NCBI RefSeq assembly: GCF_900102425.1
Contig: NZ_FNBT01000005.1
Span: 1 to 64,000, forward strand
Source: Blastococcus aurantiacus
Lineage (GTDB): Bacteria > Actinomycetota > Actinomycetes > Mycobacteriales > Geodermatophilaceae
Direction: 5' to 3'
DNA length: 64,000 nucleotides
The notes beneath the pieces are model-generated. The model was not told the DNA's origin, made no database searches, and saw nothing but the letters and a program-made list of their open reading frames with translations. Shown here one piece after another: positions 1 to 11,132 of the stretch. Every line of letters begins with the position of its first letter. Position 1 is the first letter of the stretch. The position numbers and the translations under genes were made by a program.

Positions 1-95
1 GCCGATCGCGACGCAGTGCCGATCGCGACGCAGTGCCGATCGCGACGCAGTGCCGATCGCGACGCAGTGCCGATCGCGACGCAGTGCCGATCGCG
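1..95. repeat. 17-bp tandem repeat array, truncated by the window edge
   Basis: The unit GCCGATCGCGACGCAGT repeats perfectly about 5.6 times, with copies starting at 1, 18, 35, 52, 69 and 86. The last partial copy ends at 95, directly against the stop codon of the minus-strand gene that ends at 96. The period is not a multiple of three and there are no spacers, so this is a minisatellite rather than a CRISPR array or coding repeat. The unit contains the palindrome CGATCG. The array probably continues to the left of the window. Confidence 0.97.
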
Positions 96-653
96 CTAGG
101 AGCTCAAGTCCATGTTGCCGAGGATCAGGCGCCGCGCCTTGACCGTCACGCGGATGACCACGCTGTTCCAGTCCGGGTCCTGTACAGGCGCGAGCAGCCG
201 GTCGGTCTCCACGGTGACGCGGGTGATCAGCCGGTCGTCCTGCAGCAGCGTGTACAGCGGATCGTCCGCACTCGTCGGCCGCGCACCCTCCGGCACCTGC
301 TGCGCGTGCGCAGGCGCACTGAGTGCATCCAGCAACGTCTTCAGCCGGTTGTCGATGTCACCCCGGACGATCGGCCCGGCCGCCGACTCGGGGCGCAGGA
401 GGAGCAAGTCGAGCTCTGCGGTCAGGTGCAGGTTGTCGTGGACCAAGGCCCCGTAGAACTGTCCGCTCCGCTCGACCAGGACGGAGATCTCCGTGGTTCC
501 CGCGGGCTTTAGGAGGTCGTGCCGATCGCGCAGCGGCTCGTGCTGCCACAGCTCCACCAACTGCGGGTGCAGTGCATCGCGGATCGCTTGCAGCGACCGT
601 GCATTGCGTTTGCTGCCGGGCAGCGGCCCGTCGTAGGTGAGCGTGAATCGCAC
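96..653 (-). CDS. RusA-fold-like resolvase candidate (hypothetical protein)
   Basis: This 185-residue protein has no strong hallmark at first glance. Its centre reads GDIDNRLKTLLDAL and is followed about 25 residues later by LLQDDRLITRVTVETDR. That D-x-DN...K..LDAL...DD pattern resembles the acidic catalytic motif of RusA-type Holliday junction resolvases, in which two aspartates lie in one loop and a third about 20 residues on. The length is somewhat above the usual RusA size of 120-140 residues. The GTG start at 653 lacks an obvious Shine-Dalgarno site. The stop touches the 17-bp tandem repeat. RusA function is inferred from motif spacing only; a structural match would be needed to settle it. 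It lies at the edge of the accessory region. Confidence 0.5.
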   Translation of the reverse strand: MRFTLTYDGPLPGSKRNARSLQAIRDALHPQLVELWQHEPLRDRHDLLKPAGTTEISVLVERSGQFYGALVHDNLHLTAELDLLLLRPESAAGPIVRGDIDNRLKTLLDALSAPAHAQQVPEGARPTSADDPLYTLLQDDRLITRVTVETDRLLAPVQDPDWNSVVIRVTVKARRLILGNMDLSS

Positions 654-734: not shown

Positions 735-848
735 CCAGCGACACCGCGAAGGCTGCATGCAGCCAGGTGCGGCGCCGCACCTGGCCCGCCGTCCGGGGAC
801 GTTGGAGCCCCAGACCGGGGGCAATCTGTGGCACGCAGGATCACCGGC
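735..848 (+). repeat. Direct repeat copy 1: leader and truncated start of a recombinase-like gene
   Basis: These 114 bp match 2546-2660 in the same orientation at roughly 80% identity by eye, ending in the identical stretch CTGTGGCACGCAGGATCACC. In the second copy this is the leader and first codons of the recombinase-like gene. Here the equivalent GTG at 828 opens a peptide that starts MARRITG but stops at 852-854. The copy is therefore a broken remnant of a second gene of the same kind. The 267-bp gap from 654 to 920 holds nothing else I can identify. Confidence 0.85.
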
Positions 849-920: not shown

Positions 921-1346
921 TCAGCCGCCCGATTCCGTGGCGTAGCGGGCTGCCGCCCGCAGCGCCCGCTCTGGGTCGGCGACGGCCACCAGCTCCGGCA
1001 CTTCGCCGGACAGCAGGCTGGACGGTTGCGTCAGCCACGTCCAGGCCGTCCAGTCGCCGGCGCCGGCGCCGAGAAGCCGCTCGAGCAACGGACGCAGCTC
1101 CGAGCGCACCTCACCGGCGTCGGTGAGCTGGAACGCCGGAACTTCCAACGACCCGTCCGGAAAGGTGCACGCGAGGAGTGAACGCTCTCGGCGCCGCGCG
1201 GCCACCCAGCCGGCGGTGGCGTTGAGGCCGCTATCGCCTCGGCGGATCGCGAGCTGCGCCAGCGTCAGCCCGTCGGCTGAGAGGCGTGCACGGAAGGCGG
1301 CCAGCCGCTCGACCTGCGGCTCCGTCGGACTGGTTCCGTTCACCAT
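921..1346 (-). CDS. Xre/MbcA/ParS-type toxin-binding domain protein (orphan antitoxin candidate)
   Basis: About 141 residues from the ATG at 1346; the frame stays open further upstream, but the conserved part starts near here. The N-terminal half (LAQLAIRRGDSGLNATAGWV) looks like a short helix-turn-helix-like or linker region. The C-terminal half has the order VPAFQL, ELRPLLERLL, W.AWTWLTQPSSLLSG, PELVAVADPERALRAA. This is the usual arrangement of the MbcA/ParS/Xre antitoxin toxin-binding domain (DUF2384-like). Known family members neutralise RES-domain NAD-degrading toxins encoded beside them. No RES-like gene is visible next door, so this is either an orphan or paired with something unrecognised. 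The next gene downstream on this strand is the RusA-like protein. Confidence 0.6.
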   Translation of the reverse strand: MVNGTSPTEPQVERLAAFRARLSADGLTLAQLAIRRGDSGLNATAGWVAARRRERSLLACTFPDGSLEVPAFQLTDAGEVRSELRPLLERLLGAGAGDWTAWTWLTQPSSLLSGEVPELVAVADPERALRAAARYATESGG

Positions 1347-1526
1347 GCGCAAGCTACGGCCAAGCACCGACGATCCGCCATGGCCGGCATGACGGGCATG
1401 CCGCACCCTCATTTCCGCCTTCAGACGCCAACTCGCGGCCGAGAACGTCGGCGCGTCGAGTCTCTGGGCTGTGGCAAATCGAGCGAGCGGACATGCTGGC
1501 CGGTGCTGCTGGGCTGGCAACGACAC

Positions 1527-2438
1527 CTAGTCGTTGGCTCGGGACAGGCGGAGGAATGACCGGCCGGAGTTCGCGTCCTCGACGACGACTGCCTCAAGGT
1601 CCCCGGCGCCGGCTCCGTTGTAGCGAGCTGCCACGGCCCGGTTCCCCTCGAAGGTGGTCCCGGTGACCGTGCCCTCGAAGCCGAACCTCTCGAACTGTGC
1701 TGCGTAGGCGGCGACCACCTGGTCGGCATCGGCCCCGTCGTCGAGGGCCACCACGACGCCGTACCCGCCGCTCAGGCTCCACGAGTGGGCCGGCGGTCCG
1801 ACGACGCGTCCGCCCGGTTCGAGGATCGCGACTGCCCCGCCGGTGTCGAAGGCATCCGTGGGCGCCGCCACCGGCTCGCCGGCCTCCGGTCCCTCCCACT
1901 CGTCGATCGACGGAGGCGCCGGTGGGAGGTCTGTCTCGAAGCTGACGGAACCCGATGGGACGTCGTAGGCCCGGCTCTGCCGACGGACGAGCACATGACT
2001 GAAGCCGGCGCCCTGGAAGGTGCCCCACTGAAGGTTGAACTCGTAGCTGCCGGACCCGTCGTCCCGCACCGTGAGCGCCTGGCACTGGAGCACGCTCTCG
2101 TGGAGGACGCCGCAGGCAGCGGATTCCGGGCTGAAGGAGCGCAGGGCGAAGCCGGACTCCTCGGCCTGTGCCACCAAGTCTTTCAGGACCGCGACGGGGT
2201 CCTCGCCGGTGATGACAAGGACTGCGTCCCAGGTCTCCTCCTGAGAGCCGGGCCAGCCGTTCTGCGCGCCGGGGAAGACCGCCCCGAGCAGCTCCGCTCC
2301 TTCCGGGACCTCAAGCACGGAGTCCATGCGGGACCCCGCCGCCTCCCGATCCGGACCGCTCCCGCTGCACCCCGCCGCGGCCACCAGCAAAGCCGTGCAG
2401 ATGACGGATGAGCGAACCCACGACCCCCGGACCAGCAT
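1527..2438 (-). CDS. Hypothetical secreted lipoprotein
   Basis: From the ATG at 2438 the protein has 303 residues. It starts with a basic segment and hydrophobic stretch leading to the lipobox AAAGC, so it should be lipidated on that cysteine and anchored outside the membrane. The mature part is acidic and rich in Gly, Ala and Val, with two internal cysteines near the centre. Two segments (EDPVAVLKDLVAQAEESGF and DADQVVAAYAAQFERFGF) have a similar helix-strand look, suggesting two repeats of one small alpha/beta domain. I do not recognise the family. The frame is open upstream to 2981, but that extension lacks a signal peptide and overlaps the leader of the recombinase-like gene on the other strand. 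It lies between the two 115-bp direct repeats. Confidence 0.7.
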   Translation of the reverse strand: MLVRGSWVRSSVICTALLVAAAGCSGSGPDREAAGSRMDSVLEVPEGAELLGAVFPGAQNGWPGSQEETWDAVLVITGEDPVAVLKDLVAQAEESGFALRSFSPESAACGVLHESVLQCQALTVRDDGSGSYEFNLQWGTFQGAGFSHVLVRRQSRAYDVPSGSVSFETDLPPAPPSIDEWEGPEAGEPVAAPTDAFDTGGAVAILEPGGRVVGPPAHSWSLSGGYGVVVALDDGADADQVVAAYAAQFERFGFEGTVTGTTFEGNRAVAARYNGAGAGDLEAVVVEDANSGRSFLRLSRAND

Positions 2439-2545
2439 CGCGCCATAGTGCCCGAAGTGGATCACTGCGGTCATCCGCATGGACTCGATCGTGCGCTGCA
2501 GCAATCGGTGGGCACACGTTCTTGTCTCCCCCCAGTCACAGGGGA

Positions 2546-2660
2546 GCAACGACACCTGCGAAGGCGAATGCAGCAAGGTGTGGTGCCAGCACCCTGCCGG
2601 CCGTCCGGGGACGTTCGAGCCCCGGTCCGGAGGCGATCTGTGGCACGCAGGATCACCGGC
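2546..2660 (+). repeat. Direct repeat copy 2: leader and start of the recombinase-like gene
   Basis: This is the intact partner of the copy at 735-848. It contains a short hairpin (CCGGGG at 2605-2610 pairing with CCCCGG at 2620-2625), then the Shine-Dalgarno GGAGG at 2629-2633 and the GTG start at 2640. After ATCACCGGC (ending at 2660) the two copies diverge abruptly. The copies bracket the antitoxin-like and lipoprotein genes. Confidence 0.85.
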
Positions 2661-3587
2661 CTCCCGAACGGCCAGCACCTGGCTGTTCTGGATCCGGCCG
2701 GCAAGCTGGACGACGAACTGGCCCGCGCGGTCGCGCACTGGCACACCGCCGGTACGCACACCGATGGCTCGCTGGCACGGCTGCTGGAGAACACCGCTGC
2801 CTTCACGCGGCGACTGAACGCGCAGGGCGTCGCGTCCTACACCGGAGTGTCCCCGGCACACGCCGCAGCGTTCCTGTCGGCCCACACCCGGCACGGGGCG
2901 GTACCTGAGCTGGCGACCCGGCACGCACGCCGAACCGCACTGCGCACGCTTTTCCGCACACTGCGCGCACTGGGTCTGCACGACTCAGATCCCACGCTCG
3001 ACCTGGTTCTTCCGCCGCGTGGCCAGCTGGCCGCACGGCCCCTAACCGACGACGAGGTCGGGCTGTGCCGGGCCAGCGCGCAGATGGGCGCCGGGGCGCG
3101 GTCGCAGATGCGGGCAGTGGCGTGGGCGCTGGGCGAGGCCACCGCACTGTCCAGCGAGGTCACGATGGTCCGCATCCGGGATCTCGACGACCCGCACCAG
3201 CCCAGCGCCGTGCTGCTCCCGGGCACACGCGATCTCGACGATCGGCCGGGTGTCCTGTCGGCCTGGGGTCGGCGAGTGCTGCACCGGCGGGTCGCCACCC
3301 TGCTGGAGAACGGCGCGACCAGAGACACGCTGCTGTGCTACTCCGGATCGGAACCGCCGGGTGGCTCGAAGGCGCAGGCCGCCGCGTGCAACGCACTGCG
3401 CAACGTGCTGGCCGCCGCTGGCCTCGGCGCCGAGCCGGACGTACGCCCGGCCTCGCTGAGGCACTGGGCCGGCCGGCGCCTCCACGACCGGGGCGCCCGG
3501 ATCGAACAGGTCGCCCGAGTCCTCGGGCACCGCAGCCTGGACATCACCGCCGCACACATCGGCCTGGACTGGCGAGGCACCCGATGA
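2640..3587 (+). CDS. Degenerate tyrosine-recombinase-like protein (cassette 1)
   Basis: The start is GTG 2640, because GGAGG lies 6 bases upstream; upstream in-frame codons overlap the lipoprotein gene on the other strand. The product has 315 residues. Residues 20-125 form a helical part like the core-binding domain of phage-type integrases. The C-terminal part follows tyrosine recombinase order: GEATALSSEV (box I, near residue 166), SLRHWAGRRL (272-281, keeping R274 and H275), then VLGHRSLDITAAHIG. H297 is the conserved LGH histidine, and the nucleophile would be expected nine residues later, but residue 306 is histidine. The box I arginine is also replaced by serine or leucine. It is probably a DNA-binding, non-cleaving relative. 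The stop overlaps the next start by 4 bp (ATGA), so the two are likely co-translated. Family assignment is by motif reading only. Confidence 0.75.
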   Translation: MARRITGLPNGQHLAVLDPAGKLDDELARAVAHWHTAGTHTDGSLARLLENTAAFTRRLNAQGVASYTGVSPAHAAAFLSAHTRHGAVPELATRHARRTALRTLFRTLRALGLHDSDPTLDLVLPPRGQLAARPLTDDEVGLCRASAQMGAGARSQMRAVAWALGEATALSSEVTMVRIRDLDDPHQPSAVLLPGTRDLDDRPGVLSAWGRRVLHRRVATLLENGATRDTLLCYSGSEPPGGSKAQAAACNALRNVLAAAGLGAEPDVRPASLRHWAGRRLHDRGARIEQVARVLGHRSLDITAAHIGLDWRGTR

Positions 3588-5044
3588 GCCGGCGCAGGGC
3601 TCGCAGCACCGGGCTGACGACGATCGAGCAGGTGCGGGCGGTCTTCCGGCTGCCGGCCCTATACCAGCTCGGCGCCCTGGTCGAGCGCCGACCGGTGGGC
3701 CGGCCCGCGGAGTTCCCGCCGTACCTACTCCTGGGCTACGGGGTGCTGGCCCGGGTGTTCCGCTCCGGCGCCCGCGTGGAGATCGAACTGGCGCAGCCGG
3801 CGACGTGGTCGGTGATCGTGCAGAGCGTCGAGCAGATGCGCCGGCAGCGGCCGGACCTGGAGATCGCCGCACCGCCGCGGCAGGCGCCGGGCTGGGACGC
3901 CTACCGGTACGCCCGCAACCGGCGGTTCACAGCCGAGGACGTCCTCGAGGAGCTGTGTGAGGAGTTCACCGAGCTCGCCGTCGCGCAGGCCCAGGAAGCA
4001 GGGCTGCTGCGCCCGGACGGCCCCGGATCGCTGTGCCACCCGGACCGCAGCCGCGTCGTCTACGGTGACGGGACCGTCGTCTCGCCCATGTACCGCCCGC
4101 CGGCCGCCAAGCGCGTCAAAGACGACGACGGCGTCGCCCACACCGTCTACCTCGACGCTGCGGGCAACCCGATCGACGCCCCGCGGAAGCGGTACGACCC
4201 GGACAGCGCCGAGCACCACGGCCACACCGGCCCGGTGCACGGGCAGAACTTCGTCGGCCTCTACGTGCGCGGCGACGGCCCGCACCAGCGGATCGTGCTG
4301 GCCGTCGACCGGGTTCCTCGCCCCGGCGCGGAAGCCGAGACTGCGGTCGAACTGCTGAAGCAGCTGCATGCAGTCGCCGGCGCCGGGATCCAGGCCGTCG
4401 TCTACGACGGCGCTCTGCGCGGCAAGCACATCGACGACCTGATGAGCACCTGCGGCGTGGTGGTCATCAACAAGGTGCACTCCACCTCCCGCTCCCCCGG
4501 CCGGCGCCGCACCACCCCGGCTGAGGGCCACCCCCGCTGGTACGCCCTGGGCACCTGGGAGCACGACACCGAACGCGGGCAGTGCACGCACACCCTGGCC
4601 GCCGTCGACGGTGCGGTCAGCGAAGTCGGCCTCGATGCCGAGGGCGGCCCGGTGGTGCTCGCCCGCCTGCTGCGGCGACAGGTGAAGCGGCCGAAGCGCA
4701 AGAACGGGCGCTACCACTTCACCGCCGGCTACACCGTCCCCTGCCCGGACGGGGAGTTCCTCGCCTGGATCAGCCCGCACCCGCAGCACCCCGGGGACGT
4801 CGGCCGCCCCGACGCGATCCGGTTGATCGCCGAGGGCGAGCCGGACTTCGACGTCTACACGCTGCGCAGCGACAGCGAGAGCCACAACAGCGGCTTCAAG
4901 CGCACGCTCCTGGTCGACCGCGCCCAGAGCCTCGGCGGCCGCCGCCAGCTCCTCGACTTCCTCAGCTACGGGCTGCTCACCAACGCCATCACCGCCCACC
5001 ACGCCGCAGCCGCGGCCGTGGTGCCCCTGCGCCGCGCCGCCTGA
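3584..5044 (+). CDS. DDE-transposase-like protein (cassette 1)
   Basis: This 486-residue protein starts at the ATG inside the ATGA overlap with the recombinase-like gene. A transposase catalytic triad is readable: D162 in VVYGDGTVV, D275 in QAVVYDGALRGKHIDDLM, and E432 in LRSDSESHNSGFKRTLLVDR. This matches the spacing and context of IS4/IS1182-like DDE enzymes, with the glutamate followed by a basic helix and then a conserved RRQLLDFLSYGLLTN segment. A variable insertion lies between D2 and E (about residues 295-420). The N-terminus (EQVRAVFRLPALYQLG, RPVGRPAEFPPYLLL) resembles the DNA-binding part of such proteins. It shares these blocks in order with the protein at 6983-8728, so the two are distant paralogues. 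I could not place it in a named IS family. Confidence 0.75.
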   Translation: MSRRRARSTGLTTIEQVRAVFRLPALYQLGALVERRPVGRPAEFPPYLLLGYGVLARVFRSGARVEIELAQPATWSVIVQSVEQMRRQRPDLEIAAPPRQAPGWDAYRYARNRRFTAEDVLEELCEEFTELAVAQAQEAGLLRPDGPGSLCHPDRSRVVYGDGTVVSPMYRPPAAKRVKDDDGVAHTVYLDAAGNPIDAPRKRYDPDSAEHHGHTGPVHGQNFVGLYVRGDGPHQRIVLAVDRVPRPGAEAETAVELLKQLHAVAGAGIQAVVYDGALRGKHIDDLMSTCGVVVINKVHSTSRSPGRRRTTPAEGHPRWYALGTWEHDTERGQCTHTLAAVDGAVSEVGLDAEGGPVVLARLLRRQVKRPKRKNGRYHFTAGYTVPCPDGEFLAWISPHPQHPGDVGRPDAIRLIAEGEPDFDVYTLRSDSESHNSGFKRTLLVDRAQSLGGRRQLLDFLSYGLLTNAITAHHAAAAAVVPLRRAA

Positions 5045-5072
5045 GCGACCGGCCCACTGGAAGGACGTGCTC

Positions 5073-5429
5073 ATGTCCGCCCACGCCCCCCGCACCGCCG
5101 AGCAGGTCCTCGATCTGCCTGACGCCAGCGTCCTGCAGCTGCTCGCTGCCCGGCTCTCCTCCACCGCCGCCGACACCGTCCACGGCCTGCACCAGCGCCC
5201 TGGCGTCGTCACCGCGGCCGCGCTAACCCGGGTCCGCTACCTGCTCCTCCTGCTCGCCTTCGACACCAGCCCGTTCGCCTGCCCGGCCTGCAGCACCGAC
5301 CTCGACGCCGCCTTGCACTGCGCCGCCGAGCACGGCGCACTGGCCGCACGAGCCCAGAACCAGGCCGACCGGGCCGCCCGCCGGCTCGCCGACCTCATCA
5401 CCACCGGCACCACCAGCCGCTGGGACTGA
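5073..5429 (+). CDS. Small CxxC protein of cassette 1
   Basis: The 118-residue product starts at ATG 5073, with GGAAGG about 8 bases upstream (5059-5064); an in-frame GTG at 5067 is less well placed. The start is 28 bases after the DDE gene stop, so the two are probably one transcript. The N-terminal two thirds are helical (VLDLPDASVLQLLAARL, then a leucine-rich segment RYLLLLLAF). The C-terminal part has CPACSTDLDAALHCAAEH, a C-x2-C-x9-C-x4-H arrangement that could bind zinc, followed by an Ala/Arg-rich helix. I do not recognise the family. Position suggests an accessory factor for the recombinase-like and DDE proteins. The small protein in cassette 2 holds a similar place but keeps only one CxxC pair. 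Confidence 0.65.
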   Translation: MSAHAPRTAEQVLDLPDASVLQLLAARLSSTAADTVHGLHQRPGVVTAAALTRVRYLLLLLAFDTSPFACPACSTDLDAALHCAAEHGALAARAQNQADRAARRLADLITTGTTSRWD

Positions 5430-5443
5430 CCAGTGAGCGAGAT

Positions 5444-5482
5444 GCCGGCCGGTGAAGGCGGTGCTCGTGCTTCCCGGCCGGC
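5444..5482 (+). terminator. Hairpin after cassette 1
   Basis: GCCGGCCGG at 5444-5452 pairs perfectly with CCGGCCGGC at 5474-5482 around a 21-base loop. It begins 14 bases after the stop of the small CxxC gene, so it may end the cassette 1 transcript. There is no T-run. It could equally be an element end. Confidence 0.4.
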
Positions 5483-5520
5483 GGGCTGAACCTGTCCTCG
5501 GCTCACGTAAGGATGGCCCC

Positions 5521-6348
5521 GTGGCCGACATCGCCGACGTGAGCACCAGTGCCTCCCTCGACCGCGTCGACCGCTTACTGCGGCACTGGGAAAGGGCCCA
5601 GCAGGACGACGTCGCACTCCGCATCCGGGGACACGTAGAACCGGCCCACGGACTCGCCCTGTGGGGCTTGACGTGCCACGTGTACGAGCAGACCCGCCTG
5701 GTCCGCCCCCTCATCGAGTCCCACGGTGGCATCGAGCTCGCGCCGATGATCCGGTCGTTGTACGAGAACGCACTGATGGCCCAGTGGCTCGTTCAGCGGG
5801 GCCCCAAGGCGCTGCCCGGCTTCCTGAAGGTGGGAGCGCGTCAGCGGTTCTACCTCGCGAAGACCATGCACGAGGCCAGCTGGACGGGCATGACTGACGA
5901 GATCGTGCAGCGTCTCGAGAACGGCATCCCAGAGGAGGGTGAGTTGGCGGCACAGGCCAAGCACTTCGAGAAGATCCTCGGCGACTTCGGGAGCGGTCGT
6001 CTGATGTACGCGGTCTACCGGTATCTGTCCGGCCTCTCCCACCCCGGAATCACGCTGGTCGACGCCTACGCCCACATGGACGCTGCGGGCAACGTGAGCC
6101 TGCGGCGCGAGGCGGAGGTGCATGACGCCGGCACGTGGGCCTGGACGACCGTGTGGGCCCTCGTGTGGTCTCGGGGTGCACTGGACTCCCTCACCGACGC
6201 CAGTCCCGCGCGGCACTTCCTCAAGGGCATGGCGCGCGAAGCGGGCATGCCCGGCTACACCCTCAAGTTGACCAAGGAAGCCGCGGCCAAGGCGTACGCG
6301 GATCGGTATGAGGCCGGACGACCACGTCGGCGCACGGCCAAAGACTGA
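5521..6348 (+). CDS. DUF5677-like helical protein, possible cargo gene
   Basis: The GTG at 5521 is preceded by AAGGA at 5508-5512 and gives 275 residues; the longer in-frame start at 5452 lacks a ribosome site and would lie over the hairpin. The protein is predicted mostly helical. The stretch IELAPMIRSLYENALMAQWLV and the following YLSGLSHPGITLVDAYAHMD resemble DUF5677-type proteins, which have a conserved R-x-x-x-E helix and a later S..H motif. Their function is not established. It is transcribed in the same direction as both flanking cassettes and sits exactly between them, so it may be cargo or a retained host gene. No enzymatic motif is visible. The C-terminus is basic (RPRRRTAKD). Confidence 0.6.
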   Translation: MADIADVSTSASLDRVDRLLRHWERAQQDDVALRIRGHVEPAHGLALWGLTCHVYEQTRLVRPLIESHGGIELAPMIRSLYENALMAQWLVQRGPKALPGFLKVGARQRFYLAKTMHEASWTGMTDEIVQRLENGIPEEGELAAQAKHFEKILGDFGSGRLMYAVYRYLSGLSHPGITLVDAYAHMDAAGNVSLRREAEVHDAGTWAWTTVWALVWSRGALDSLTDASPARHFLKGMAREAGMPGYTLKLTKEAAAKAYADRYEAGRPRRRTAKD

Positions 6349-6518
6349 CTCACAGCCCATCACCGGCGGGCTGGGACACCACCCGGTATGGGTTCACCTC
6401 CGCACCGCACGCCGCCTTGTGCCCCCGTGGAGCGCCCCAACGGTGCAGCGCGAGCGGAGATCCGCTCCGCGCAGCCCGGCACTCCTGCCGGTCCCTGCGC
6501 CGTCCAACGGAGGCACCC

Positions 6519-6845
6519 ATGATCCACCCGCAGCTCGACTCCCCCAACCGGCTGCGTCGCCATCAGCTGCTCGCCCACCGCGAAGAGCTCGCCACAGCCG
6601 CGATCGAACACCTCGGCCACGACCTGCCCGGCGCCGACGTCCTCTTCCGCGCCATCCACCTCGTCGAGCAGCTGATCAGCGCCGAGTACCCCGACACCTG
6701 GCAAGCGCACTACCCCGACTGGATCAGCCGCGACGCCGACCGGCTGCACAACGCCGACACACCTCGCACCGACACCTGCCGGATCTGCCGCACCGCGGCC
6801 CGGGCGGTCGTCCGCACTGATCTCGCACCGCCCACCGCGGCCTGA
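6519..6845 (+). CDS. Small CxxC protein of cassette 2
   Basis: The ATG at 6519 follows GGAGG (6509-6513) by 5 bases and gives 108 residues. The sequence starts MIHPQLDSPNRLRRHQLLAH and continues as an amphipathic helical segment (LFRAIHLVEQLISAEYPDTWQAH), then DADRLHNADTPRTDTCRICRTAARAVV with one C-x2-C pair. In position it mirrors the small gene of cassette 1, but the sequences are not obviously alignable beyond the CxxC. The gene is followed by a strong hairpin and then by the DDE gene. The 170 bases upstream (6349-6518) contain no further gene. Function is unknown; a DNA- or protein-binding partner of the DDE protein is a guess from context. Confidence 0.6.
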   Translation: MIHPQLDSPNRLRRHQLLAHREELATAAIEHLGHDLPGADVLFRAIHLVEQLISAEYPDTWQAHYPDWISRDADRLHNADTPRTDTCRICRTAARAVVRTDLAPPTAA

Positions 6846-6862
6846 CCGCACCACCCCGACCT

Positions 6863-6894
6863 CGACGAGCCCCGGCACACGCCGGGGCTCGTCG
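6863..6894 (+). terminator. 14-bp perfect hairpin between the small gene and the DDE gene
   Basis: CGACGAGCCCCGGC (6863-6876) pairs perfectly with GCCGGGGCTCGTCG (6881-6894) around the loop ACAC. It begins 17 bases after the stop of the small CxxC gene. It would act as a strong terminator or attenuator, making expression of the downstream DDE gene depend on read-through or on a promoter in 6895-6982. Confidence 0.75.
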
Positions 6895-6929
6895 CCCATG
6901 CACCACCGCGGGCGACTGCGCACCCCCAA

Positions 6930-6975
6930 GTCCTTCGGACCGTCCGCCGACGTCTCACCCCGACGTCCGAAGGAC
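6930..6975 (+). promoter_or_regulatory. Inverted repeat covering the ribosome site of the DDE gene
   Basis: GTCCTTCGGAC (6930-6940) and GTCCGAAGGAC (6965-6975) are perfect 11-bp inverted repeats with a 24-base loop. The right arm contains the Shine-Dalgarno AAGGA of the ATG at 6983, so a folded transcript would hide it. The arms could also be a protein-binding site, since a related CCTTCGGA core recurs upstream of the recombinase-like gene at 8793-8807. Confidence 0.7.
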
Positions 6976-6982
6976 CACCCCG

Positions 6983-8728
6983 ATGCACCGCCACTCGCAG
7001 CGCACGGCCGCCGGCTACCAGGCGCAGTTCACCGCGAACAGCCTCGCCACCCGGTTCCTGATCGACGACCGACCCGCGCTCACTGACCTGCCACTGGCCG
7101 GCCCACGCCGCAAGAAGGAGGGCCGCGGCGGCGCCACCGCCAACCTGGTCGTCTTCCGCACGATCATCCGGAGCCCGCTGCTGCCGGCGTTCACCGCCGC
7201 GCTGCCCCAGGCCCGTGGCGGCCGACCCACTCCACTGTCCGACCTGTACTGGGTGTTCTACGGCTGCGCGATGCGCGAGCTGGCCAGCAACGAGCTGCTC
7301 GACCAGGAGCTGCCGCAGGTCTGGACCGAGATCCGCAAGGAGTTCTGGTTCGAGCACGGCATCCTGCTGCCCGACGCTTCGCCCAGCGGCAAGATTGCCG
7401 GTGGCAGCTACAGCTACCGCAAGTGGCGCACCCGGCGCATCCTCGCCCCCGAGAAGAAGCCCAGCCCGCTGCCGGACCTCGTCGGCCGGCTCACCGACAT
7501 CTCCATCCCGCTCGCCCTCGCAGTACGCACCGCCGAGGGCGGCAACGTCCCGCGGGCCCTCATCGACCCCGCGGTGTGGGACATCGTCGCCATCGACGGC
7601 ACCGTCCTCAACGCCCCCTCCGACGTCCGCGAGGAGGAGATCGTCAACGACAACGGCGAGGTCGTCCTGCGGGTCACCGGCAGCCGCGCCAAGAAGGGCA
7701 AGCCGCGCGTGCACCACGACGTGACCGACGCCAGCGGCAAGGAGCACGGCGCCCAGAAGGGCCTGTACAACGTCGTCGCCACCACGAAGGGCCTCGACAC
7801 CTACACCCGGGTCGTGCTGGGCCTGGACATCGGCTACCCCCGCGAGGGCGAGGACCCCGTCGCCATGCGCGTCCTCCGAGCCCTGTACCGCCGCGCAGGC
7901 CACCGCTTCCCGGTGCTGACCATCGACGGCATCGGCAAGCCCGGCATGTACCAAGACCTGATGGCCGAGTCCGGCATCTACGTCGTGAACTCCCAGAACG
8001 CCCGCCAGCGGGCGAAGAAGGAGTCGGAGGCCGACCCGGCCAACTCACACCTCACGGGCACCACCATCCGGCGCTACGGAGTCAAGAAGGACCAGGTCAA
8101 GCTCAGCTACGACACCCCGCTGGGCGCGGCCGACCACGACATCGACGGCGTGGCGCACCAGCACCACCTGATGGCAGACGACGGTGCTGTGTACGAGACC
8201 GACCGCCCGCACACCCGGGGCAGCCGCGTCCGCAAGCTCGGCATGCTCGAGCCGAGCAGCGTCGAGCGGCGCCGCGACTCCGACGGCAGGTACTACCTGC
8301 TGCTCACCCTCACCCGCAGCTGCTCACACGGCGGGAAGTTCACCACCACGCTCGAGCTGCGGTGGACAAAGCCAGGCAGAGATGGACGGGTGCAGTGGCG
8401 GTCGATGGTCGCCAACGTGCGGGTCATCCCCGAGGCGCTGGTCGACAAGTACGCCCTCACCTTCGGCAAGCGCAACCAAATCGAGAGCTTCTTCTTCTGG
8501 CTGGAGAAGCGCTTCTACGTCAAGGACCGGCACGCCAGCTGGGGCCGGGAGGCCCAGCTGCTCGACCTCGTCTTCGCCGCGCTCCTGCACAACACCGAGA
8601 CGTGGGCGCACCTGGCCTACCGACACCCCCAGGCAGCCGCCGACCTCGCGCGCACCCTCGCCCAGCTCCCCGACCACCCGGTCCCGCAGGCCGACGACAC
8701 GAACCTCGACAGCGAGGTCGCCGCCTGA
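6983..8728 (+). CDS. DDE-transposase-like protein (cassette 2)
   Basis: The ATG at 6983 follows AAGGA by 8 bases; the product has 581 residues. The triad is D205 in IVAIDGTVLNAP, D315 in FPVLTIDGIGKPGMYQDLM and E501 in GKRNQIESFFFWLEKR. The glutamate block continues into REAQLLDLVFAALLHN, matching the RRQLLDFLSYGLLTN block of the cassette 1 protein. The stretch between D2 and E is long (about 185 residues) and holds a histidine- and arginine-rich segment followed by predicted beta strands. The N-terminus has a basic patch (RRKKEGRGG, 42-50) suited to DNA contact. Most mobile DDE enzymes are 300-450 residues, so this one is large. It lies between a small CxxC gene and a recombinase-like gene. 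Family by motif only; no IS name assigned. Confidence 0.75.
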   Translation: MHRHSQRTAAGYQAQFTANSLATRFLIDDRPALTDLPLAGPRRKKEGRGGATANLVVFRTIIRSPLLPAFTAALPQARGGRPTPLSDLYWVFYGCAMRELASNELLDQELPQVWTEIRKEFWFEHGILLPDASPSGKIAGGSYSYRKWRTRRILAPEKKPSPLPDLVGRLTDISIPLALAVRTAEGGNVPRALIDPAVWDIVAIDGTVLNAPSDVREEEIVNDNGEVVLRVTGSRAKKGKPRVHHDVTDASGKEHGAQKGLYNVVATTKGLDTYTRVVLGLDIGYPREGEDPVAMRVLRALYRRAGHRFPVLTIDGIGKPGMYQDLMAESGIYVVNSQNARQRAKKESEADPANSHLTGTTIRRYGVKKDQVKLSYDTPLGAADHDIDGVAHQHHLMADDGAVYETDRPHTRGSRVRKLGMLEPSSVERRRDSDGRYYLLLTLTRSCSHGGKFTTTLELRWTKPGRDGRVQWRSMVANVRVIPEALVDKYALTFGKRNQIESFFFWLEKRFYVKDRHASWGREAQLLDLVFAALLHNTETWAHLAYRHPQAAADLARTLAQLPDHPVPQADDTNLDSEVAA

Positions 8729-8754
8729 CAACAGGGTGACTGACCAGCACCCAG

Positions 8755-8807
8755 GGGCTCCGAACGGTGACCCGCGTCCACCCAGACGCGCCTCACCTTC
8801 GGAGCCC
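8755..8807 (+). promoter_or_regulatory. Inverted repeat covering the ribosome site of the cassette 2 recombinase-like gene
   Basis: GGGCTCCGAA (8755-8764) pairs with TTCGGAGCCC (8798-8807); the stem extends inward by GGTGA/TCACC with one unpaired base. The Shine-Dalgarno GGAG lies in the right arm, 5 bases before the GTG start at 8810. The layout copies that of the inverted repeat before the DDE gene, suggesting shared translational or protein-mediated control. Confidence 0.7.
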
Positions 8808-8809
8808 TC

Positions 8810-9877
8810 GTGCGTGCCCAGACCGCTGCCCCCTACGACTACAGCCGCATCCTGCGCCGCACCGACCCGGCCAGCTCGCCGCTGTCCCTCCCCATTGCTG
8901 ACCAGACGGTCGACGTGGCCGCCGAGATGACCGGTGACCTCACCGCGACACTGCCCGCCATCGCTGCCATCTGGCAGCAGGTCAGCCCCGACGCCGACAC
9001 CACCGGCCAGATGCTCCGCGTCCTCACCGCCTTCACAGCCAGCGCGATCGCCGCCGGCGCGACCACGTGGCACGACGTGGCCGTCGACGACATCGCCTCG
9101 TTCATCCACGCCCCCGGTCCCAGCGCCGGAGATGTGTGCCGGCTGCGCAAGAACGCTGTCCACGGCGCGTACCTCGCGCTGTACGACGCGGGCCTGTTCG
9201 ACGACGTCAGCCCCGCTGCAGGCGTCGACCCCGTCCCGGAGCAGGTTCGCAACGACGACCGCGGCCCGATCCGCACCGCCACCCACGACGAGATGCTGAT
9301 CCTGCGGCTGGCCACCCGCCTGGCCGTCTCCTCCCGTGCCGCGCACCTGTCCGCCGCAGCCGTCGCCATCTGCTCGGCGTCGGCAACCACCACCGAGGCG
9401 CCGCAGGTGCTGTGGGGGCACGCGGGCCTGACCGGCGACGTCCCGCAGCTCACCCTCGCCGGCAGCCCGAGCGCCACCAACGACGACGAGGCACGCATCG
9501 ACGCCCGCATCGTCACCCTCGACCGCTGGGAGGCCGAAGCCCTCACCGACTGGCACACCGAGGTATCGGCGAAGGACAAGCCCGGCAAGACCTCGCGGGC
9601 CGCCTCTGCGACCTCGGTCCTCTACACGGGCGCGCAGGCCCTCGACAGCAACAGCGCGCACGCGGCCGTTGACCAGCAAGTCCGCAAGGCGTTCACGATC
9701 GCCGACCTCGGCCGCGAACTCGGGCTCTCCGCCGGGTCACTCCGACTCTGGGCCGCCGCCCGCCACGTCACGGAGTTCGCCACCCTCATCACCGGTGCCA
9801 ACATCACCGGCATCGACCCGTTCACCCTGCACCGGCGGGTCACCCGCAGCGGCGCACCGGGACCGGGCAGCAGCTGA
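8810..9877 (+). CDS. Highly degenerate recombinase-like protein (cassette 2)
   Basis: The GTG at 8810 gives 355 residues and lies 81 bases after the DDE gene. Residues 60-140 form a helical segment with a WHDVAVDDIASFIH block like the core-binding domain of integrases, then RLRKNAVHGAYLALYDAGL. A central region (ILRLATRLAVSSRAAHLSAAAVA, near 163-186) parallels the box I region of the cassette 1 protein. Near 305-320, GLSAGSLRLWAAARHV parallels its PASLRHWAGRRL block and keeps the arginine (R312), but the following histidine, the LGH motif and any tyrosine nucleophile are missing. It is therefore unlikely to cut DNA by itself. Assignment rests on position, length and weak pattern similarity; it could be only a fold relative or an unrelated DNA-binding protein. 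Confidence 0.55.
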   Translation: MRAQTAAPYDYSRILRRTDPASSPLSLPIADQTVDVAAEMTGDLTATLPAIAAIWQQVSPDADTTGQMLRVLTAFTASAIAAGATTWHDVAVDDIASFIHAPGPSAGDVCRLRKNAVHGAYLALYDAGLFDDVSPAAGVDPVPEQVRNDDRGPIRTATHDEMLILRLATRLAVSSRAAHLSAAAVAICSASATTTEAPQVLWGHAGLTGDVPQLTLAGSPSATNDDEARIDARIVTLDRWEAEALTDWHTEVSAKDKPGKTSRAASATSVLYTGAQALDSNSAHAAVDQQVRKAFTIADLGRELGLSAGSLRLWAAARHVTEFATLITGANITGIDPFTLHRRVTRSGAPGPGSS

Positions 9878-9931: not shown

Positions 9932-10375
9932 ATGACCAGTTCCCCGGCCGGGGGCAACGCCGGCGATGCCGCCCGCCGCTTTCGGACGGCACTCGAGACG
10001 GCAGAGAGCCCGCGGCTACTCGGGCTCAGGTCGTTCCCGAAAGCAGCGTGCGGCGACGCCAGCCGGCTGCTGGCCCAGTACCTACGCGATCGCGGCTTCG
10101 GAGAGTGGACCATCGTGACCGCTTGGCGCGACGGCATGTCGCGCACGCACGCATGGCTGGAGCAGGACGGCTGGCTCATCGACATCACAGCTGACCAGTT
10201 CGAGGACGTCTCGGAGCCGGTCATCGCGACTCGGCGCTCCGACTGGCACGACGGCTGGGAGGTGCGACAGCCCAGCACCCACAGTGGCGGCCTGGCCCAC
10301 TACGACTCCACGTGTGGAGCTGACGAGGACTACGACCGGCTGAGCCGCCTCGCTGACCAACTCGAGGCTGCGTGA
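9932..10375 (+). CDS. Small cysteine-peptidase/transglutaminase-like protein
   Basis: The 147-residue product starts at ATG 9932. Three spaced motifs suggest a papain/transglutaminase-like triad: a cysteine followed by a helix in KAACGDASRLLAQYLRDRGF, a histidine in SRTHAWLEQDGWLIDIT, and the aspartate of IDITADQF. This C, H, D order and spacing are typical of small transglutaminase-like cysteine peptidases. No signal peptide is seen, so it is cytosolic. It follows the recombinase-like gene by 54 bp on the same strand and could be cargo of that cassette. The substrate is unknown. The enzyme class is inferred from motif order only. Confidence 0.6.
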   Translation: MTSSPAGGNAGDAARRFRTALETAESPRLLGLRSFPKAACGDASRLLAQYLRDRGFGEWTIVTAWRDGMSRTHAWLEQDGWLIDITADQFEDVSEPVIATRRSDWHDGWEVRQPSTHSGGLAHYDSTCGADEDYDRLSRLADQLEAA

Positions 10376-10400: not shown

Positions 10401-10814
10401 TCAGCTTGTACGGCGCGCTCGGACTCCCCACTCCATGCACTCCTTCTTCTGGTCCTCCCAGAAGCGTGTTGCCGTCACCTGGTCCGCAGCCGAAACCCGA
10501 TCCTTCAGTGGGTCGACAAGACCGTTGACCTTGAAGTAGCCACCGCCCGGCCAGCTCTGCCGAGGTCCGGCGACATGAACGACCAGGGAGTCCAACGGCG
10601 GGAGCCCGCGCTGGATGCACCGGTCGTGGATGGCCTTCATGAAGTCGGTGACGAGCTGGGACTCTGCGCCTTGATGGAGCTGCTGTGGCTCTGGAAGGCC
10701 GGCGGCCGCGAACACTGCTGAGTAGCGAATCGTCTGACCGCGGTCCTTCGCCCGCTCGATGATCGCGTCGATGCCAGCGTCGACCTGTTCTTCGTTGAAC
10801 GTGTGGCGCGCCAC
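10401..10814 (-). CDS. Hypothetical protein, accessory region
   Basis: I use the GTG at 10814 (product MARHTFNEEQ..., 137 residues) because the only good Shine-Dalgarno, GGGAG, abuts the ATG at 10820 but lies 6 bases from this GTG. The protein has an N-terminal helical part (FNEEQVDAGIDAIIERAKDR) and a middle segment YSAVFAAAGLPEPQQLHQG that looks like a small DNA-binding or protein-binding helix pair. The C-terminal part (SLVVHVAGPRQSWPGGGYFKVNG) ends in a tryptophan-rich helix, FWEDQKKECMEWG. I do not recognise the family. It is convergent with the cysteine-peptidase-like gene, 25 bp apart. The 318 bp between it and the stop of lysG at 11133 hold no supportable gene. Confidence 0.6.
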   Translation of the reverse strand: MARHTFNEEQVDAGIDAIIERAKDRGQTIRYSAVFAAAGLPEPQQLHQGAESQLVTDFMKAIHDRCIQRGLPPLDSLVVHVAGPRQSWPGGGYFKVNGLVDPLKDRVSAADQVTATRFWEDQKKECMEWGVRARRTS

Positions 10815-11132
10815 CCGCATCTCCCTGAAGGCCAACACTCTCGCTCCACATCTGGAGCCGTCGTCACGGAGCCTGGAAGTAAAGCAGGCGGGCACCCCAA
10901 CCTGTCCGAGCACCGCTCACCCGCTTCCAGCGCGACGCGCTCATGACTACTGCTAGATCTCGAAGCAGGCGTTCCACGGGGCGCTGACCTGCGCTCCAGG
11001 ATCGGCCACATGGCGTCCCGAGACGGCGCAGGCCCTCAAGCAGCGGCGGACACGAAAGCGCAGGTCACCGGAGTTGTTCCCATACCCCACGTCGGCGGAA
11101 CACGAGAACCAGGTGCGGGCCCAGGATAGGGA

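Follow-up and report, generated by a model that had tools for sequence, protein, structure and literature searches.

The first 64,000 nucleotides of contig NZ_FNBT01000005.1 of Blastococcus aurantiacus (the window, here always meant at its full length) contain the larger part of a mobile element whose length is 15.3 kb or more. We consider it likely that this element is a tRNA-homing DDE transposon, with a catalytically dead tyrosine-recombinase-like protein (YR) as its probable target selector. Comparison between genomes shows the ends of such elements, the duplication at the target, their movement, and their location at tRNA 5' ends, and it shows that an intact DDE transposase is repeatedly paired with a dead YR.

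The core of the element is a unit of six genes on the plus strand: YR1 (2640..3587), DDE1 (3584..5044, overlapping YR1 by 4 nt), the small cysteine protein CX1 (5067..5429), another small cysteine protein CX2 (6519..6845), DDE2 (6983..8728), and YR2 (8810..9877). The two halves are mirrored in gene order. The first-pass annotation, made from the letters of the window, had listed these genes, the intact DDE triads, and the degenerate state of the tyrosine-recombinase partners, and the list of open reading frames and the alignments confirm it on all these points, with longer upstream start choices for some frames. The DDE proteins are homologs, with 27% identity across 516 alignment columns (E 2e-21), and their triads pair in the alignment, D162, D275, and E432 of DDE1 corresponding to D205, D315, and E501 of DDE2. 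YR1, the proposed selector, lacks the catalytic Tyr, His II, and Arg I; YR2 is weakly similar to it (25%, E 1e-4) and more degenerate. Relatedness of CX1 and CX2 was not detectable (E 0.11). The order YR1-DDE1-CX1-CX2-DDE2-YR2 is also found in Geodermatophilus telluris (L017) and in a further genome of that genus (G021, L018). Since the same genes follow in the same order in two other species, the arrangement reflects more than chance. Thus, what had been described as two separate cassettes is one unit in one element.

The loss of catalytic residues extends to the whole set of YR proteins. Compared with XerA, both the catalytic Tyr and His II are absent from 37 of 37 proteins (40 less three sequences under 271 residues), Arg I from 35, and Arg II from 21. 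The DDE triad is kept wherever its positions could be aligned (37/37, 39/39, and 38/38). The relationship of YR to tyrosine recombinases is seen at the level of profiles. YR1 matches Phage_integrase at E 1.4e-5, just below the Pfam cut-off, and NF001399 at E 1.7e-7, far below the cut-off of that model; four of 12 YR members match Phage_integrase at E 0.01. The YR profile matches the solved tyrosine recombinases XerA, XerH, and Gp33 (PDB 5hxy, 5jjv, and 5vfz) with E from 1.3e-4 to 0.015; the YR proteins differ from these enzymes in the missing residues listed above. A Foldseek search with a poor YR model (pLDDT 46) placed tyrosine-recombinase entries at ranks 1-7, none reaching E 0.001. For the DDE proteins, the profile had no credible match in the PDB, and at E 0.01 two of the 11 members match the Pfam family DDE_Tnp_1 (PF01609) and none matches any other.

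Relatives of DDE1 were found in 8 of 146 related genomes. A profile built from 11 members matched 20 of 396 genomes in a sample of the phylum and 18 of 394 in a sample of the class; the genome of the window (G000) is counted in each of these three figures, and the matches include fragments. The genus of G700 is taken to be Mycobacterium because the G700 loci match a plasmid of M. kansasii; of 248 genomes of this genus, 26 match, fragments again being counted. Six plasmids also match, five from Mycobacterium and one from Streptomyces, whereas no relatives were detected in phages at E 1e-5 or in viral contigs at the limits used. Loci were taken from other matched genomes, long matches being preferred (all 7 in the related set, 17 of 35 in the phylum and class samples, and 14 of 26 in the genus of G700), and counts on loci cover these fetched genomes.

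Across the resulting 48 loci, a YR gene, sometimes degraded, lies within 1.5 kb upstream of 36 DDE genes that cover 390 or more profile positions. Six others have it downstream, and for three, one of which is at a contig end, none was seen on the strand in question. The 4-nt overlap seen in the window recurs in many upstream pairs. Distances between YR proteins and between their DDE partners correlate (r 0.96, 39 pairs, 0 of 2000 permutations); this figure, like the counts of triads and catalytic residues given above, omits one broken sequence, and with all 40 pairs r is 0.92. Besides YR and DDE, no gene family is common to more than five of the 34 clustered sequences, relatives of CX1 being present in three and those of CX2 in four. 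Hence, the conserved linkage of three gene families suggested at first does not hold as a rule, and the general linkage is that of YR with DDE. The database records consulted call the proteins 'hypothetical protein', 'integrase', or 'site-specific integrase', and the family is therefore easily missed. In the portions of the open-licence literature consulted, including parts of PMC10293859, PMC7105574, PMC5322544, PMC11406308, and PMC8869645, the pair is not described. The suspicion of the first-pass annotation is supported as far as an apparently undescribed mobile element is concerned, one with conserved ends that combines a DDE enzyme with a cleavage-dead tyrosine-recombinase relative.

The ends of elements with a single YR-DDE pair are found at tRNA genes. 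Three plasmid copies have a sharp common right end, ...AAAGACGTCCC or a one-base variant. In L092, L137, L141, L142, L144, L146, and L151 (the last with a terminus of its own), the right end lies 2-3 nt before tRNA-Arg(CCT). In more distant members and the two-pair type taken together, a same-strand tRNA gene follows 13 of 35 DDE ends: tRNA-Arg(CCT) in L088, L089, L090, L095, L097, L104, and L106, tRNA-Gly in L024 and L093, tRNA-Lys in L025, L098, and L102, and tRNA-Ala in L101. The tRNA gene is 1.4 kb away in L090 and 560 nt away in L098, and L098, L101, and L104 are fragments. The DNA before these 13 tRNA genes resembles one terminus: by manual count of the sequences, TTTC is present in 12 (TTTTC in nine), and CCC stands directly before the tRNA in 11. 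A same-strand tRNA gene within 350 nt downstream was found for 8 of 21 intact YR-DDE pairs versus 2 of 405 other genes in 33 loci; with 15 more loci, 14 of 36 intact pairs have such a gene. In the 33 loci none of these tRNA genes is on the opposite strand, and none of the six pairs with YR downstream has a downstream tRNA gene. The pairs are not all independent: the elements of L091 and L146 closely resemble each other, and L092 is almost the same as L137. The near-identity of L092 and L137 extends to the middle of tRNA-Arg, beyond which they differ, as if unrelated islands used the 3' half of this tRNA gene and the YR-DDE family its 5' end. Two candidates for the left end in mycobacteria were rejected. 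One was the point at about -5150 where similarity ceases; the other was a block of 52 nt common to L139 and L141, which was taken for the end of another insertion sequence.

An example of recent movement is provided by plasmid pMK12478. Its copy of 44,135 bp, with metabolic and MCE genes as cargo, lies between GGGACCTGACG and AAAGACGTCCC, and CGTCCCACC flanks both sides as a perfect 9-bp duplication; AACGTGCAC, considered as the left end at an earlier stage, was replaced once the outer end and the duplication had been seen. In the 6.1-Mb contig C1 of G1067, 43 kb of this element are present with 99.99% identity. There, the right end is 3 nt before tRNA-Arg(CCT), and the left end is 90 kb away, past a 44-kb stretch that is absent from the plasmid. 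Another example is a tandem array of three elements before one tRNA-Arg(CCT) in G966 (contig C1, around 922,220-962,750). Each right end is followed by CCGCCCTCG, that is, 2 nt and the first 7 nt of tRNA-Arg, and the spacing is 12,239 and 28,291 bp. We read this array as accretion, new copies entering at the tRNA gene and pushing older ones away. Alternatively, it could reflect local duplication, because the last 1.85 kb do not differ between two of the copies.

The element in the window has a similar position at a different tRNA gene. Its right end is at about 11,086, and its left end is on another contig of the same genome (C13), at the 5' end of tRNA-Thr(TGT). The right terminus, TTGTTCCCAT plus ACC (11074..11086, plus strand), is an inverted repeat of the left-end ATGGGAACAA. 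It is followed by the target-site duplication CCACGTCGGCGG (11087..11098, plus strand), a 12-nt stretch common to both borders, whose first 10 nt are within the tRNA. The sequence after tRNA-Thr(TGT) on C13 is GGGACATGGGAACAAG; within the window, CCACGTCGGCGG comes after TTGTTCCCATACC and consists of the same 12 nt as those straddling the tRNA 5' end. The tRNA gene is intact in G000, G021, and G. telluris, and ATGGGAACAA begins 5 nt past its 5' end. In all three genomes, TTGTTCCCAT is found about 11 to 15 kb off (about 15.3 kb in G021 and 11.3 kb in G. telluris, with the same layout), and after 3 nt there is a copy of the first 10 nt of tRNA-Thr. Both the copy and the tRNA gene read CACGTCGGC in G000 and CACGCCGGC in G021 and G. 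telluris, so that the differing base, T or C, matches the tRNA of each genome.

Because C13 ends in the 17-bp tandem array (GCCGATCGCGACGCAGT) with which the contig of the window, C18, begins (1..95, inside the element), the length of the element is at least 4.24 + 11.09 kb, provided that the two contigs join at the array, as G021 suggests. The element thus reaches past both sides of the span 2640-9877 initially assigned to it. The array, which breaks the G000 assembly, has 41 near-matches in G021. The tRNA-Thr gene stands at the end far from YR2, and in the single-pair elements the tRNA gene follows DDE; therefore, the layouts differ. The comparison with empty sites that the first-pass annotation had called for yielded nine relatives with the same tRNA-Thr locus and no unit (G001, G002, G005, G006, G010, G011, G017, G019, and G022). 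A relative of DDE1 was not found in eight of these genomes, and that of G005 is on another contig. The right-flank gene lies within about 100-250 bp of the tRNA gene only in G017 and G002. A 178-bp YR2-like remnant (L176:7133-7303) is present near the tRNA-Thr site of G011, one of the eight genomes without a detected DDE1 relative.

The DDE tree places the two-pair genomes in two clades, one of DDE2 with six members and one of DDE1 with eight, apart from the 20 single-pair rows. The tree was built on 34 of the 40 pairs, short sequences being omitted, and has a midpoint root and several long branches.

The scenario that we consider likely is the following. The intact DDE transposase would insert the element at the first nucleotide of the tRNA or at most about 3 nt upstream of it. 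The staggered cut (9 bp where it is exactly readable) would span the first bases of the tRNA; as the duplication covers these bases, the tRNA 5' end would be rebuilt and the gene would survive. The dead YR would bind the target tRNA gene and bring the DDE enzyme there. In the lineage of the window, two diverged YR-DDE pairs may share the work, perhaps one per end, and the remaining genes would be cargo. For the family as a whole, we lean slightly toward a new class of target-selecting transposons in Actinomycetota, with a core of two genes in which a dead YR, rather than a TnsC/TnsD or CRISPR module, would steer a DDE transposase of no other known class to tRNA 5' ends, with lineage-specific tRNA targets, a plasmid niche, and a heteromeric machine in the derived two-pair lineage of the window.

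Several observations weigh against a tRNA-homing transposon with a YR selector. The majority of intact YR-DDE pairs, 22 of 36, have no tRNA gene directly downstream. Six of these are of the two-pair type, five are plasmid copies or identical to one, one is near a contig end, two are older tandem copies, and one is degraded, with a tRNA gene 1.4 kb on; seven (L087, L094, L138, L139, L140, L143, and L148) are unexplained. The flank of the G1067 copy is 10 bp rather than 9. At tRNA-Thr the left border is not unique, the stretch common to both borders being 12 nt in G000, 11 nt in G. telluris, and 20 nt in G021, and in G021 the first bases past the tRNA also resemble the native upstream region, making the border less exact. 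Several of the nine sites lacking the unit hold other DNA beside the tRNA gene. For the two-pair elements of G016 and G004, which are outside the group of the window, the nearest downstream tRNA-Lys gene was ruled out as the target, because its native upstream region is common to G000, G001, and G021. For G130, tRNA-Lys as the target is only suggestive: it is preceded by similar TTGTTCCCA and CCCATAC motifs, and the region yielded no second stretch identical to its first 9 nt. Shared ancestry may account for a part of the correlation between YR and DDE distances. Finally, both AlphaFold models, made with four sequences each, are poor (mean pLDDT 36 for DDE and 46 for YR).

Among other explanations, we regard as possible, if rather doubtful, that the DDE enzyme itself recognizes the tRNA gene, while the dead YR holds the ends together, binds them, or regulates expression. 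Divergence of YR and DDE in step is expected of partners in a complex in either case; what speaks for a selector is an analogy, the Tn7-like transposon Tn6022, whose selector TnsF is an inactivated relative of tyrosine recombinases according to the part of PMC10293859 consulted. A domesticated immobile locus that retains old transposon parts, for example in defence or gene regulation, would agree with the single unit in the genome of the window and with the same tRNA-Thr locus being used in three species. Such a role is unlikely in view of the intact triads, the readable ends, the copied bases that track the tRNA of each genome, and the clear recent movement of relatives. Since tRNA genes are common sites of genomic islands, and further genes of pMK12478, not within the element, carry the annotation of tyrosine-type recombinases, one may also think of ordinary islands borne by an unrelated tyrosine integrase, with the YR-DDE pair as a passenger. 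The junction, however, is at the 5' end of the tRNA gene and not in its 3' half, the ends are inverted and flanked by a 9-bp duplication, the terminus is at a similar distance after the DDE gene in distant members, the YR proteins are without the nucleophile, and the clustering shows no other widely shared family; we consider this explanation very unlikely.

A Tn7-like transposon with unusual proteins seems to us the least probable of all, hardly a realistic candidate, even though several traits are in its favor: homing that leaves genes undamaged, copies on plasmids, a large cargo, and a tyrosine-recombinase partner that is inactivated, as in Tn6022. No Pfam match to a TnsC-type ATPase or TniQ was found in nine genes of the window, four left-arm genes on C13, four cargo genes of G021 and G. 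telluris, or the other accessory genes scanned, including those from Streptomyces; none is named among the features of pMK12478, whose gene table is incomplete. An rve-type TnsB has no Pfam match among the 11 DDE members at E 0.01. As the scanned proteins contain no TnsC, TniQ, or rve-type match, we do not assign the elements to the Tn7-like group, although the way of working looks similar. Tn7 has TGT ends and a 5-bp duplication. Here, the ends are GGGAC/GTCCC, and the duplication is 9 bp both in pMK12478 and between the tandem copies of G966.

The tRNA-homing transposon with a YR selector, which we prefer, can be compared with several known systems. The initial statement that no known transposon combines a DDE enzyme with a dead tyrosine recombinase needs to be qualified: in Tn6022, too, a DDE transposon with a fixed site in the chromosome works with an inactivated tyrosine-recombinase relative. 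When TnsF was removed, insertion of Tn6022 into comM was impaired, as the consulted sections report (PMC10293859). According to the same sections, TnsF carries zinc fingers and acts together with TniQ, TnsC, and TnsAB. In the YR-DDE elements, by contrast, the YR gene overlaps or abuts the DDE gene, TnsC and TniQ were not detected in the proteins scanned, and the targets are tRNA 5' ends. Other Tn7-like elements and CRISPR-associated transposons use tRNA genes as attachment sites and resemble the YR-DDE elements in tRNA homing, cargo, and spread by plasmids; their targets are set by TnsD/TniQ or a guide RNA, and their transposase set is different, according to the part of PMC11406308 consulted. 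The Dada transposons of fish and the protist Perkinsus are also DDE transposons targeting tRNA genes. They are eukaryotic and, unlike the YR-DDE elements, have their insertion sites within the tRNA gene and duplicate 6 to 7 bp; a dead YR partner is not mentioned in the passages of PMC8869645 consulted. The DDE proteins show a weak likeness to IS1182 (NF033551) and DDE_Tnp_1, each matched by two of the 11 members at E 0.01. They are set apart from IS1182 by score, DDE1 reaching 16.8 bits (E 0.0025) against a cut-off of 270 bits and the best member E 0.00062, in a comparison of the transposases.

The cargo varies between the copies. In the window it comprises RusA-like, DUF5677-like, and unknown genes, in G021 a DEAD-type helicase, and in G. 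telluris an exonuclease-BRCT protein. The DUF5677-like gene between the two halves of the unit (5521..6348, plus strand; PF18928, E 6.9e-6, just under the Pfam cut-off) is missing from the same place in G021 and G. telluris and is thus ruled out as a core part. The RusA-like gene (96..653, minus strand; weak Pfam match, E 0.02), also inside the element, is 91% identical to the neighbor of YR1 in G021. At the start of YR1, the window copy has a 1.8-kb stretch, which G021 lacks. It is bordered by 72-bp direct repeats with 89% identity at 777..848 (plus strand; the left border, with the YR1 upstream region and first codons) and 2589..2660 (plus strand), which suggest a gain of cargo by recombination or insertion. 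Of the two genes in this stretch, both on the minus strand, that at 921..1526 has a relative (36%, 70 aa) between YR2 and DDE2 in L019, and that at 1527..2450 has no Pfam match at E 0.1. Two hypothetical genes (9932..10375, plus strand, and 10401..10913, minus strand) lie between YR2 and the right end. The six core genes have no match in PADLOC at E 0.01.

Some features of individual loci are also worth recording. Genes of the E1-E2/ThiF (ubiquitin-like) type stand beside YR-DDE pairs in two loci (L020:10598-12556 and L022:1889-3781); the L020 copy has strong E1-E2 matches in PADLOC, and the L022 gene clusters with it. A divergent block of small genes recurs in the elements of L084, L085, L086, L091, and L092. 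In L086 its products are two HTH-like proteins, one DUF6932 protein, and a protein of unknown type that matches PDC-M63B weakly in PADLOC. No tRNA gene is present at the right end in L138, L139, L140, and L143, which have the AAAGACGTCCC-type end, and in L148, which has another end.

If the dead YR is indeed the selector, homing of DDE transposons would have arisen more than once by disarming an integrase, in Tn6022 with TnsF and in the YR-DDE elements with a different transposase and no ATPase detected. The YR-DDE elements would then be a simpler system in which to study the licensing of a transposase by its selector, and a candidate route by which two proteins could insert tens of kilobases at a fixed harmless site in actinobacterial genomes. 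They also offer a mechanism for the movement of gene clusters between conjugative plasmids and tRNA sites.

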